In this document: piece after piece, positions 15,851 through 30,500 of the stretch
Layout of the letters: the number at the start of each line of letters is the position of its first letter
Numbering within the stretch: position 1 is the stretch's first letter
Source of the DNA: Bacteroidales bacterium
GTDB lineage: Bacteria; Bacteroidota; Bacteroidia; Bacteroidales; Muribaculaceae
DNA: 40,524 nucleotides
Assembly: GCA_029224905.1 (NCBI GenBank)
Contig: JAQXVL010000056.1
Coordinates: 1 to 40,524, forward strand
Direction of reading: 5' to 3'
Program-made: the position numbers and the translations under genes
The notes under the pieces: model-generated
What the model saw: the letters and a program-made list of their open reading frames with translations, nothing else
Told to the model about the DNA's origin: nothing
The model's database searches: none

Positions 15851-15883
15851 CAAAGATAGTGATTTTTTGTTAATCATACCAAA
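15851..15883 (-). promoter_or_regulatory. Putative core promoter of the DUF4143 ATPase gene
   Basis: On the minus strand TTTG (15880-15883) - N21 - TATCTTTG (15851-15858), followed by 4 nt to the ATG at 15846. Confidence 0.55.
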
Positions 15884-15970
15884 TAAAAACTGAAAATCCG
15901 TCGATTTTGTTAATCATACCAAACAAAAACTGAAAATTTGGGATTTTGTTAATTATACCAAACGAAATTC
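15861..15970. repeat. Three imperfect tandem copies of a ~40-bp unit, GATTTTGTTAATCATACCAAACAAAAACTGAAAAT
   Basis: Copies begin at 15861, 15903 and 15942 (the third is truncated after ACCAAACGAAA). Confidence 0.85.
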
Positions 15971-26151: not shown

Positions 26152-26760
26152 TTACCAAGCGTTGTAGTGAATGTTTTCGGGTTTCCACTTATCCTTAGGT
26201 TCGGGCGACTCGGCGGGATAGCCGATAGGCACTACATTAAGAGGCACGACGTAGTCGGGCAGACCGAGCACAGCGCTCACCGGAGCAACTCGTTCGGTGG
26301 GGTAGACGCCCGTCCAAACGGCGCCCAGACCTAATGCGTGGGCTGCCAACAGAAGGTTTTCGGTAGCCGCCGAAGCGTCTTGAATCCAAAAAGCTTCACC
26401 ATCGCCTTCGATAGTTTTGTGCTTGTTTCCGCAAACCACGATAGCCAACTGCGCTTGCTTGAGCATCTTGGCGTAGGGCAGGCTATCGCAAAGGGTGGCG
26501 AGCACTTTTGCATCGTTGACCACCACAAAATCCCACGGCTGCTTGTTCATTGCCGTCGGAGCCGACATGGCAGCGCGCAAAAGGGTTTCAACTTTCTCCG
26601 GCTCAACGGGTTGCGACGTGTAGGCGCGGATGCTTGTACGTGTTAAGATTGTAGATACGGCGTCGTTCTGACTTTTGTCGTTGCCGCAGAACGCCACATA
26701 GGCGAGCGCGCAAACTGCAACGGCGAGTACAACATTGATAATTAATGAGATACGCTTCAT
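26152..26760 (-). CDS. Nitroreductase-family protein with N-terminal signal/anchor
   Basis: MKRISLIINVVLAVAVCALAYVAFCG anchor; TRTSIRAYTSQPVEPEKVETLLRAAMSAPTAMNKQPWDFVVV core. Confidence 0.87.
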   Translation of the reverse strand: MKRISLIINVVLAVAVCALAYVAFCGNDKSQNDAVSTILTRTSIRAYTSQPVEPEKVETLLRAAMSAPTAMNKQPWDFVVVNDAKVLATLCDSLPYAKMLKQAQLAIVVCGNKHKTIEGDGEAFWIQDASAATENLLLAAHALGLGAVWTGVYPTERVAPVSAVLGLPDYVVPLNVVPIGYPAESPEPKDKWKPENIHYNAW

Positions 26761-27557
26761 TTTTTATAATAGTTTTGTTTGATTGTAGGCAGCTTCTTCT
26801 GCAACTCCGCAATGCGTTGAGCGTCGCTGGGGTGAGTGCTCATAAATTGTGGCACTTTAGCCGACGATGACGACGACATTTTTTGCCAGAACGAAACGGC
26901 AACGTCGGGATTATAGCCCGCCATCGCCATAAAGATTGTGCCCATATAATCGGCTTCGATTTCGTGCTTGCGCGAGAAAGGCAACATTACGCCGTATTGA
27001 GCGCCGAGACCGAATACGCCGTTTGCCAGCGTTTGCACCATCGCACTCTTGTTGGCTATCGTTGCGCTGAGAATCTGCGCGCCGTATTGTGCCATCACTT
27101 GTTGACTCATTCGCTCGTTGGCGTGTTTTGCCACGGCGTGTGCCACCTCGTGACCGACAACGACCGCCAATTCGTCGTCGCTCCCGACGATGCCCATAAG
27201 TCCTTCGTAGACAACGATTTTGCCACCGGGCATGCAGAACGCGTTGACTTGGCTGTCTTTCACCAAACTAAACTCCCACGAGAAGTTGCTCAACTCGCTC
27301 GACATGCCGTTTTGGCGCAGATAGTTCTCCGTTGCGGCGGCAATCTTCTGCCCGACGCGTGTAACCATTGCCGATTGTGTCTTGTTGGTCGACTTTGTTG
27401 CCGTTTTCATATAATCGTTGTATTGTGTCAAACTCGAAGAAAGTACTTCTTGGTCAGAAACCAATAAAAGTTGTTTTCTTCCGGTTACGGGAACAGAACT
27501 ACAACCCGATAAAATTAGCAAAAGTGCTACAGCAAACATTAAAATCTTTTTATCCAT
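26757..27557 (-). CDS. M48-family metalloprotease lipoprotein
   Basis: Lipobox ILSGCSSVPVTGRKQLLLVSDQE; zinc motif VVVGHEVAHAVAKHANERMSQQ. Confidence 0.92.
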   Translation of the reverse strand: MDKKILMFAVALLLILSGCSSVPVTGRKQLLLVSDQEVLSSSLTQYNDYMKTATKSTNKTQSAMVTRVGQKIAAATENYLRQNGMSSELSNFSWEFSLVKDSQVNAFCMPGGKIVVYEGLMGIVGSDDELAVVVGHEVAHAVAKHANERMSQQVMAQYGAQILSATIANKSAMVQTLANGVFGLGAQYGVMLPFSRKHEIEADYMGTIFMAMAGYNPDVAVSFWQKMSSSSSAKVPQFMSTHPSDAQRIAELQKKLPTIKQNYYKK

Positions 27558-27652
27558 AGTCTATAATCATTAAATTTGACCGAATAATCGGCCGTTTCTT
27601 CTATTTATTGCGACAAATTTACGATATTATCTCCGAAAGTGCAAGTTTTTAA

Positions 27653-27761
27653 GCTGCTGACGCAGCGGTTATTCGGCAACTACGTTGCGGTTAATCGGCT
27701 GCTTCGCAGCGGTTATTCGACGCCAAAGATGCGGTTATTCGGCAACTACGTTGCGTATTCG
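27653..27761. repeat. 22-nt-period hairpin repeat array (left copy, 5 units)
   Basis: On + strand: [arm5][NNN][arm5']GGTTA[NNCG]; 22-nt units at 27672, 27694, 27716, partial at 27738, and a slightly variant first unit from 27653. Confidence 0.85.
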
Positions 27762-27767
27762 ACAGGT

Positions 27768-28130
27768 TTATTTGAAACTTTTTTGTAAAGCATTCAGCAT
27801 TTTAGAAATGCGCAAAATGCGATTCTTGATAGAAGAAAGTTGGCTTTCAGAAATATAATCCAAATCATGCGCAATTTGAATTTGACAATAAAGTTCCATT
27901 AAAGATCCATACGCAATTTCAATGAAATGAGACTTTTCTTTTTTAGACATTCTACCTGCTCCTTCCGCAATATTAGACGGCACAGAAACAACTGCTCGGC
28001 GAATTTGGTCGCAAAGTGAATACTTTTCCTCAGAGGGAAATTCTCGTATAGCTATGTAAATTTCTTTAACAAGATTCCGAGACTCTTGCCAAACATTAAG
28101 TTTTTCAAAAGAGAAATAAATTTTATCCAT
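27768..28130 (-). CDS. Four-helix-bundle protein (S23 / 23S rRNA intervening-sequence protein family)
   Basis: 120 aa: FEKLNVWQESRNLVKEIYIAIREFPSEEKYSLCDQIRRAVVSVPSNIAEGAGRMSKKEKSHFIEIAYGSLMELYCQIQIAHDLDYI. Confidence 0.92.
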   Translation of the reverse strand: MDKIYFSFEKLNVWQESRNLVKEIYIAIREFPSEEKYSLCDQIRRAVVSVPSNIAEGAGRMSKKEKSHFIEIAYGSLMELYCQIQIAHDLDYISESQLSSIKNRILRISKMLNALQKSFK

Positions 28131-28179
28131 AAGGCAAAGTTAATCAATTATTTTGATTTATTTGCTTTTTACACCGATT

Positions 28180-28384
28180 CTACAGCAACCCGATTGCCAT
28201 TTAACCGCGCCGTAGGCGCCGTCTAACCGCAACCCAGTAGCCTTCTAACCGCAGTAACGCTGCCGTATAGCCGTATCAGCGAAGCTATTTAACCGCAACG
28301 AAGTTGCCGTATAACCGCGCCGTAGGCGCCGTCTAACCGCAACCCTGTTGCCGAATAACCGCAACGAAGTTGCCGCATAACCCC
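28180..28384. repeat. 22-nt-period hairpin repeat array (right copy, 8 units plus degenerate ends), inverted relative to the left array
   Basis: TAACC[arm5][NNN][arm5'][N4] units start at 28202, 28224, 28246, 28268, 28290, 28312, 28334, 28356. Confidence 0.9.
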
Positions 28385-28392
28385 AAAAATTA

Positions 28393-28424
28393 TTTGCTAT
28401 TGCGCTTAGTTTTCACTAATTTTG
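28393..28424 (+). promoter_or_regulatory. Putative metG promoter
   Basis: TTTG (28393-28396) - N20 - TAATTTTG (28417-28424). Confidence 0.65.
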
Positions 28425-28460: not shown

Positions 28461-30500
28461 ATGGAAAAGAAATTTCGACGCACAATGGTGACAGCCGCGC
28501 TGCCGTATGCCAACGGTCCGGTGCACATCGGTCACCTTGCCGGAGTCTATGTGCCGGCAGATATCTACGTACGCTACCTCCGCCTCAAAGGCGAAGACGT
28601 TGTCTTCGTGGGCGGTTCTGACGAGCACGGTGTGCCTATCACTATCAAGGCTAAAAAGGAGGGCGTAACGCCGCAAGACATCGTTGACCGCTACCACAAA
28701 ATTATCAAAGAATCTTTCGAAGGTCTCGGCATCTCGTTCGACGTTTATTCGCGTACGACGTCGGAAATTCACGCCCGTACGGCAAGCGATTTTTTCCGCA
28801 AACTCTACGACAAAGGCGAATTCGTCGAAAAGACGTCTATGCAATACTACGACGAAGAGGCGCATCAGTTTCTTGCCGATCGCTACATCGTCGGAACGTG
28901 CCCTCACTGCGGCAACACGCGTGCCTACGGCGACCAATGCGAAGCCTGCGGTACGTCGCTCAACGCTACCGACCTAATCGACCCGAAGTCGGCTATCACC
29001 GGCAACGTGCCCGTTCTTCGCGAGACGAAGCACTGGTATTTGCCGCTCGACAAGTGGGAACCGCGCTTGCGTCAATGGATTTTGGAAGAGCATAAAGAGT
29101 GGCGTCCGAACGTCTACGGTCAGTGTAAGTCGTGGCTCGACCTCGGCTTGCAGCCGCGTGCCGTGAGTCGCGACCTCGATTGGGGTGTGCCCGTGCCGGT
29201 CGAAGGTGCCGAAGGTAAGGTGCTCTACGTGTGGTTCGACGCGCCTATCGGCTATATTTCAAACACTAAGGAGTTGCTTCCCGACACTTGGGAAAAATAT
29301 TGGAAGGCTGAAGATTCGCGCATCGTGCATTTTATCGGTAAAGACAATATCGTGTTCCACTGCATAATTTTCCCGGCAATGCTTATGGCTGAAGGGTCGT
29401 ATCAGTTGCCCGACAACGTGCCTGCCAACGAGTTTCTTAACCTCGAAGGCGACAAGATTTCGACTTCGCGAAACTGGGCTGTGTGGCTCAACGAATATCT
29501 CGAAGATTTGCCCGGCAAGCAAGACGTGTTGCGCTATGTGTTGACGGCAAATGCACCCGAAACGCGCGACAACGACTTCACCTGGAAAGACTTCCAAGCG
29601 CGTAACAACAACGAACTTGTGGCTATCCTCGGCAACTTCGTCAACCGCTCGCTGGTGCTTACTCATAAGTATTTCGAAGGCAAAGTGCCTGCACGTGGCG
29701 AACTTACCGACTACGACCGCGCTACGCTTAACGAGTTTGCCGACGTGAAGGCTACGCTCGAAAAATATCTCGACACATACCGTTTCCGCGATGCGCAGAA
29801 AGAGGCTATGAACCTCGCTCGCATCGGCAACAAATATCTTGCCGACACCGAGCCGTGGAAACTCGCCAAAACCGACATGGGTCGCGTGGCTACGATTATG
29901 AACTTGGCTTTGCAGATTACGGCGAACCTTGCCATCGCTTTCGAGCCGTTCTTGCCGTTTATGTCGAAAAAGTTGCGCACGATTCTCGGTATGCACGAAT
30001 TTTCGTGGAATGCCCTCGGCAGCGTCGACATCCTCTCGGCAGGCGCAACAATCGGTCAGCCCGAACTCTTGTTTGAGAAAATCGGCGACGAGGTTGTTGA
30101 GGCTCAGGTCAAGAAACTTGTCGACATGAAGCGTGCCAATGCGCTTGCCAACTTCGAGCCCAAGCCCGTTGCAGCCCCCGTGGCGTTCGACGAATTTATG
30201 AAGATGGATATTCGTGTAGGTACGGTTTTGGAATGTGAGAAGGTCAAGAAAGCCGACAAATTGCTCAAGTTCCGCATCGATGACGGAATGGGTGGCAGAA
30301 CTATCGTGTCGGGCATTGCGAAATTCTACAACCCGGAAGATTTGGTAGGCAAGCAAGTGTGCTTTGTTGCCAATTTCGAGCCGCGAAAACTCAAGGGCAT
30401 CGAGTCGCAAGGCATGATTCTTTCGGCAGAAAACGCCGACGGCAGCCTTGTTGTAATCGGTCCGCAAGGTCCAGTTGTGCCCGGCTGTCAAGTTGGCTAA
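28461..30500 (+). CDS. metG: Methionyl-tRNA synthetase
   Basis: [30 protein letters not shown]; zinc site [29 protein letters not shown] (KMSKS-like); C-terminal EMAP/tRNA-binding domain. Confidence 0.96.

Follow-up and report, generated by a model that had tools for sequence, protein, structure and literature searches.

A tandem array of mini-hairpin units in a Muribaculaceae genome is probably one end of a mobile S23 cassette

We analysed a window of 40,524 nucleotides (positions 1 to 40,524, forward strand, of contig JAQXVL010000056.1, assembly GCA_029224905.1) from a Bacteroidales bacterium of the family Muribaculaceae, in which a tandem array of hairpin-forming units lies between a gene for an S23 family protein and metG. 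The preliminary description of this array reported eight contiguous 22-nt units of the format TAACC-N5-N3-N5'-N4, which we confirmed in exact register, and we agree that the repeat is non-coding. The run is bordered by two degenerate units, CTACA-GCAAC-CCG-ATTGC on its 5' side (at 28180) and TAACC without a hairpin on its 3' side (at 28378). Within the run, unit 4 carries the linker TAGCC, the arms of unit 2 pair at 4 of 5 positions and those of unit 3 pair at all 5, including one G-T pair. Units 1 and 6 are identical as described, whereas the 110-nt (five-unit) duplication read from them finds support only in units 1-2 versus 6-7. Absent from the description were an inverted partner array built of the same units, with an inverted match score of 83 to the right array against a control maximum of 25, and the S23 gene enclosed by the two arrays (Table 1). 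Single-strand DNA folding of the array was only mildly better than that of shuffled sequences (z of -1.5 and -2.4), and these scores are uninformative because long inter-unit pairings dominate.

The enclosed gene encodes protein P0001, which exceeds the curated cut-offs of PF05635 (135.8 versus 33.8 bits, profile positions 1-106 of 106) and TIGR02436 (125.1 versus 24) and is a homologue of the solved structure 2gsc (E=6.8e-23). It is the sole gene of a cassette of about 750 bp (27650-28399) and lies between inverted arrays of one tandem repeat; the cassette itself sits between an M48 protease gene and metG. A PADLOC defence search gave no match. The tie to metG implied in the preliminary description is not supported: the array belongs to the S23 cassette, metG carries no array in three congeners (G001-G003), and the promoter-like element TAATTTTG intervenes. 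Because this element lies downstream of the array, the array is likely outside the metG transcript. With these observations, and with no Rfam match, a metG leader or riboswitch was rejected. A similar element, TAACTTTG, precedes metG at a comparable position in the same congeners. Its candidate copy at the S23 gene is weak, since the motif lacks enrichment at other S23 genes: TAnnTTTG occurs at 5 of 106 S23 genes versus a shuffle mean of 4.5, and a general internal promoter of S23 genes was rejected.

Table 1. Features of the S23 cassette and its immediate neighbours (coordinates in the window)
Feature	Coordinates	Strand	Remarks
Right array, TAACC-hairpin units	28180..28399	+	5' array of S23 gene; eight units in exact 22-nt register (28202-28377) plus flanking degenerate units
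Left array, same TAACC-hairpin units inverted, about five	27650..27759	-	3' array of S23 gene
S23 / 23S_rRNA_IVP four-helix-bundle protein P0001, 120 aa	27768..28130	-	Pfam PF05635 E=8.2e-40; NCBIfam TIGR02436 E=1.3e-36
Possible Bacteroidales-type -7 element TAACTTTG of S23 gene	28135..28142	-	Inside cassette; motif match only, weak
M48 metalloprotease	26757..27557	-	Neighbour outside element; Pfam PF01435 E=3.5e-37
metG, methionine--tRNA ligase	28461..30500	+	Neighbour outside element; NCBIfam NF001100 E=1.4e-257
Possible metG -7 element TAATTTTG	28417..28424	+	Motif match; between array and metG

S23 genes are generally flanked by inverted repeat arrays. For S23 loci collected across Bacteroidales, mostly one genome per family, the 300 nt upstream of the open reading frame (ORF) were compared with the reverse complement of the 300 nt downstream. 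The median inverted flank score was 35, versus 18 when flanks were paired from different loci. The 99th percentile of this mixed-locus control was exceeded by 61 of 115 loci in inverted orientation and by 14 of 115 in direct orientation. A score of at least 30 was reached by 75 of 106 Bacteroidales S23 genes versus 4 of 123 neighbouring ORFs (Fisher P=7.8e-30). Outside Bacteroidota, 17 of 22 S23 loci passed the same threshold, drawn from Gemmatimonadota, Verrucomicrobia, cyanobacteria, Gammaproteobacteria, Cloacimonadota, Clostridiales and Phycisphaerae. As a positive control, Y1 transposases of the same lineage, the known case of the RAYTs (transposases associated with repetitive extragenic palindromes, REPs), scored high on a similar flank test. 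The matching S23 flanks are short tandem repeats, mostly of period 7 or 8 or multiples thereof, and in 51 of 60 loci the 5'-side array is richer in G than in C, with the opposite bias in 6. No S23 gene was found in phage records. In four genomes of different families an S23 gene with its own repeats lies directly 3' of a sufB-like gene of the iron-sulphur operon (L183, L189, L207, L212). Shared flank repeats at these four loci were considered and rejected, the similarity being coding sequence of the same neighbour gene, and an rRNA location of the loci was likewise ruled out.

The repeats follow the phylogeny of the S23 protein, and S23 relatives drawn from different families bear related repeats. 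Because the sufB-like coding sequence caused flank similarity at four loci, repeat sharing was compared in array segments only, using pairs from different genomes. Below 30% protein identity 1.4% of pairs shared repeats, and at 60% identity or more 10 of 15 pairs (67%) did; at 50% or more sharing was seen in 23.5% of pairs versus 2.9% in permutations (P<=2e-4). The ratio of nonsynonymous to synonymous divergence (dN/dS) of S23 was about 0.07-0.12 where dS was computable, with synonymous sites near saturation at such distances. Unrelated S23 genes of a single genome are flanked by different repeats; for example, genome G497 holds GATTACAG, AGCGAACG and others. The closest relative of P0001, at 58% identity and from the same family, is flanked by GGTTTANN octamers, and a congener S23 at 52% identity by GGTTA/TAACC octamers together with hairpin units. 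The window arrays thus look like the hairpin-bearing form of octamer arrays of the same S23 branch. Cognate repeats are also dispersed in the host genomes. Each of the four genomes that encode a CAGTC-type S23 contained the CAGTC-type repeat (66, 10, 8 and 6 matches); of 11 other genomes, two had it, with one or two matches each, and its reversed form was never found. Similarly, the GATTACAG repeat was confined to G497 among 15 genomes. No S23 gene was nearby at 11 of 13 dispersed cognate-repeat loci inspected.

Several pairs of occupied and empty sites were found in cyanobacteria. In Picosynechococcus PCC 7003 an S23 gene with its arrays lies between cas10 and cmr3, genes which in PCC 7002 are 12 nt apart. 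Similarly, Nostoc edaphicum carries an S23 cassette between nrdB and nrdA, and Calothrix NIES-4105 has none there. A cassette lies between cas6 and cas4 in Anabaena 90; Dolichospermum 0315A, with shared flanks 98.8% identical, lacks it but holds a different insert (roughly 200 nt with inverted ends; L398, about 1119-1365). The best case is reciprocal and involves two cassettes on three plasmids. An AGTCAGG-type cassette occupies the B-C gene junction of pNPUN02 and pNsp_a, where pNsp_c is empty; pNsp_c carries a AAAAGGGG-type cassette at the C-D junction, where pNPUN02 and pNsp_a are empty. The S23 proteins of the two cassettes share 38% identity, and pNsp_c and pNPUN02 match at 90-96% identity in proteins B, C and D. 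The empty sites hold no arrays, so the arrays travel with the S23 gene, and in cyanobacterial plasmids S23 and both arrays insert as a unit. No clear target-site duplication was discernible at these junctions. These sites bear on the explanation that the arrays are passive products of slippage or hairpin-primed duplication and that S23 cassettes settle in repeat-rich intergenic DNA. Unit copy number does vary, and a tandem duplication is visible in units 1-2 versus 6-7. Against this, a pre-existing array across an insertion would be direct rather than inverted, the cyanobacterial empty sites are array-free and the repeats track protein phylogeny, so we find a passive origin improbable. Three S23 cassettes lie inside CRISPR-cas operons of cyanobacterial plasmids, two at cas6-cas4 and one at cas10-cmr3 (L396, L397, L402). 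The same S23 protein is encoded on two plasmids of Nostoc PCC 7120, with a related locus in Nostoc HK-01 (L394, L412, L415). On pCC7120gamma and in HK-01 a gene for an ISL3-type transposase directly precedes the S23 gene, which is perhaps a passenger.

The unit of the window array recurs throughout the host genome (2.59 Mb in 233 contigs). The dyad TAACCGC-N9-GC-N4-TAACCGC occurs 43 times and its reversed pattern not at all; the array is therefore no chance pattern. From the retrieved host contigs we parsed 114 units, 91 of them perfectly paired. The latter fall into seven arm types, paired throughout (GCATC, GCGC, GCGCC, GCAAC, GCAGC, GCTGC and GCAC), and all 91 have a C-G closing base pair. 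GNA or GNNA loops are found on the TAACC strand in 68 of 90 units and on the opposite strand in one; many units are mutual copies, and among distinct units with loops of 3-4 nt such loops occur in 43 of 62. The linear part is 9 nt long in 90 of 91 units, and length variation sits in the hairpin, giving whole units of 20-23 nt. The 22-nt period of the preliminary description thus holds in the window array and not as a strict constant genome-wide. The constant features of the unit are a short linear part and a mini-hairpin with a G..A loop, rather than a length of 22 nt. Selection on the hairpin structure, also proposed there, is supported by the covarying arms, the invariant closing pair and the one-strand loops. 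In dispersed arrays, plain octamers TAACCTCT and TAACCTCC are intermixed with hairpin units, as if the hairpin-bearing unit had arisen by addition of a hairpin to an octamer unit. Of the unit clusters in the retrieved host contigs, 23 of 25 are intergenic, where random placement expects 11%, and many are inverted pairs that enclose a short, S23-free core.

GNA and GNNA loops on G-C stems form extraordinarily stable DNA mini-hairpins (PMC4686876), and the four-base loops among the units include GTCA, GATA, GTTA, GACA and GCCA, which fall outside the RNA-type GNRA class. Because the GNA/GNNA loops are on one strand only and several loops are non-GNRA, a single-stranded DNA hairpin of one strand is favoured as the active or recognised form. 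The array could instead act as RNA, either as a leader or terminator for metG or S23 or as a stem for excision of the cassette from a transcript, as in intervening sequences (IVSs) of 23S rRNA. The two inverted arrays could pair in a transcript crossing the cassette, and several S23 genes do lie inside operons. In Coxiella, moreover, RNase III excises a 23S IVS whose S23 ORF is preceded by tandem heptamers (PMC4990558). The loop classes speak for DNA, and the array-free congeners, the promoter-like element before metG and the missing Rfam match are contrary to such a role. Overall we give an action as RNA a low probability: an RNA role for metG is unlikely, and the cassette itself may act as RNA in the manner of the 23S IVSs.

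The TAACC-hairpin repeat was found in 2 of 397 genomes of the family, the host and G021, which belongs to another genus; this rules out a repeat common to many species. In a species-level genome collection the G021 contig was the sole real array, and the remaining matches were chance or coding; TAACCGC dyads are absent from three congeners. Arms drifting without compensation in other genomes, or a one-off repeat, would have spoken against structural selection as first described. The repeat is indeed nearly species-restricted, but its arms are compensated in G021 and in the dispersed copies. A second dispersed palindromic family (core GGTCGCACCAAGGCGCGACCCTAC) often borders TAACC hairpin arrays in the host (L265, L266, L272, L276, L280). 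The host also carries a second S23 gene (L002, contig C6, 1501-1815) among phage-like genes, bordered by inverted ATAGGGGATAG / CTATACCCTAT. Elsewhere in the window, a 40-nt tandem repeat of 2.6 copies (15865-15967) lies between two convergent or neighbouring ORFs.

We consider it probable that the array forms one terminus of a mobile S23 cassette bounded by two inverted arrays, and that the system operates in the manner of RAYTs and their REP-derived repeats (REPINs) with an unrelated protein. Across bacteria, such cassettes end in inverted short-tandem-repeat arrays private to each S23 lineage, and S23 with both arrays would insert as a unit at intergenic and operon-junction sites. Repeat copies lacking S23 would be left behind or spread in the host genome. 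Most likely, an S23 oligomer would recognise its own repeats and promote their copying or recombination, much as RAYT transposases act on REPINs; that S23 binds these repeats is our inference. In the lineage studied here, a basic 8-9-nt unit TAACCNNN may have gained a stable one-strand GNA/GNNA mini-hairpin, giving the 22-nt period. By analogy with the cyanobacterial cassettes, the window copy would be mobile as well.

Several observations weigh against this interpretation. An empty site for the window copy was not found: metG is preceded by a different gene in the congeners, and in congener G001 no array site matched on both flanks, synteny being broken. G021 carries a TAACC hairpin array and no detectable S23 gene. 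The dispersed host hairpins mainly have GCATC or GCGC arms and the S23 arrays mostly GCAAC, and because the arm types differ, descent of the former from the window cassette is unproven. About 30% of S23 genes fall under the inverted-repeat threshold. We know of no S23 protein with recombinase chemistry, and the family has no known nuclease or recombinase motif, for which reason a host enzyme may be recruited for movement. Finally, a TAACC composite stands about 390 nt before a Y1 gene on contig C35.

This last point belongs to the strongest rival, in which a Y1 (RAYT) transposase has spread the TAACC hairpins as REP-type repeats and the position of the S23 gene between two of them is incidental. 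RAYTs are the presumed agents of REPIN dispersal (PMC3116915), and the host has two RAYT-like Y1 genes (L403 on contig C35, L404 on contig C197), each flanked by its own inverted palindromic composites. The TAACC composite on C35 is, however, one-sided and lies beyond other REPs, and each of the two RAYTs is directly flanked by repeats of other types. In G021 no Y1 gene is detectable beside the hairpin array, and a congener S23 gene carries TAACC repeats in a genome without TAACCGC dyads. Inverted arrays are, moreover, common to S23 genes across phyla. On balance we hold a RAYT origin to be unlikely. The host genome is rich in REP-like families, and the composites of its two Y1 genes differ in sequence.

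For the mobile S23 cassette, the RAYT/REPIN system is, judged by analogy, the closest functional parallel. Both have a single-copy gene, inverted palindromic flanks, dispersed intergenic copies without the gene and co-evolution of protein and repeat (PMC3116915). The window S23 shows the inverted palindromic flanks and the intergenic dispersal, a likeness in working and not in membership. S23 is a four-helix bundle rather than a Y1 HUH transposase, and the profile matches of P0001 are to S23/bAvd-type families only. Its repeats form tandem arrays with units of 7-8 nt (here 20-23 nt), and the mobile unit includes the gene itself. The S23-bearing IVSs of 23S rRNA in Coxiella and Leptospira involve the same protein family and were described as selfish with inverted repeats, the Coxiella heptamers being a further likeness (PMC4990558). 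The window cassette instead lies between protein genes, with no Rfam rRNA match at 25-31 kb, and its arrays are long, lineage-specific, dispersed in the host and built of hairpin units. Similarly, Avd/bAvd proteins of diversity-generating retroelements share the fold, and P0001 matches bAvd more weakly (E=4.6e-12); its DivGenRetAVD score, however, is 41.9 versus an 80-bit cut-off. No reverse transcriptase family was found among six proteins scanned at 25.3-31.8 kb, where template and variable repeats were not searched for.

The intergenic tandem repeats of 7-8 nt known as heptamer repeats, namely the short tandemly repeated repetitive sequences (STRRs) of cyanobacteria and TAACTGA of Beggiatoaceae, cyanobacteria and Bacteroidetes, are similarly patchy across distant phyla. 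For TAACTGA a mobile repeat-binding protein was proposed and none identified, and S23 is unmentioned (PMC4679880); here a candidate partner gene is identified. No work that we found in the open literature connects S23 genes with inverted tandem arrays as a general feature; this search covered neither subscription papers nor preprints, and priority is uncertain. S23/IVP proteins are widespread and 'have no known function' (PMC4990558), and the heptamer arrays of cyanobacteria, Beggiatoaceae and Bacteroidetes lack an evident mechanism (PMC4679880). It seems to us an evenly balanced proposition that S23 genes form a widespread, undescribed class of mobile elements ended by inverted arrays of private repeats. 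S23 would then be the missing recognition protein behind many bacterial heptamer and octamer repeats, spreading them without a known recombinase domain and, in this lineage, via one-strand DNA mini-hairpins. Linking S23 to the repeats puts a name to the protein, assigns each protein its cognate repeat and supplies pairs of empty and occupied sites in cyanobacteria, and would thereby reduce both the function of S23 and the spread of the repeats to a binding assay and a mobility assay.
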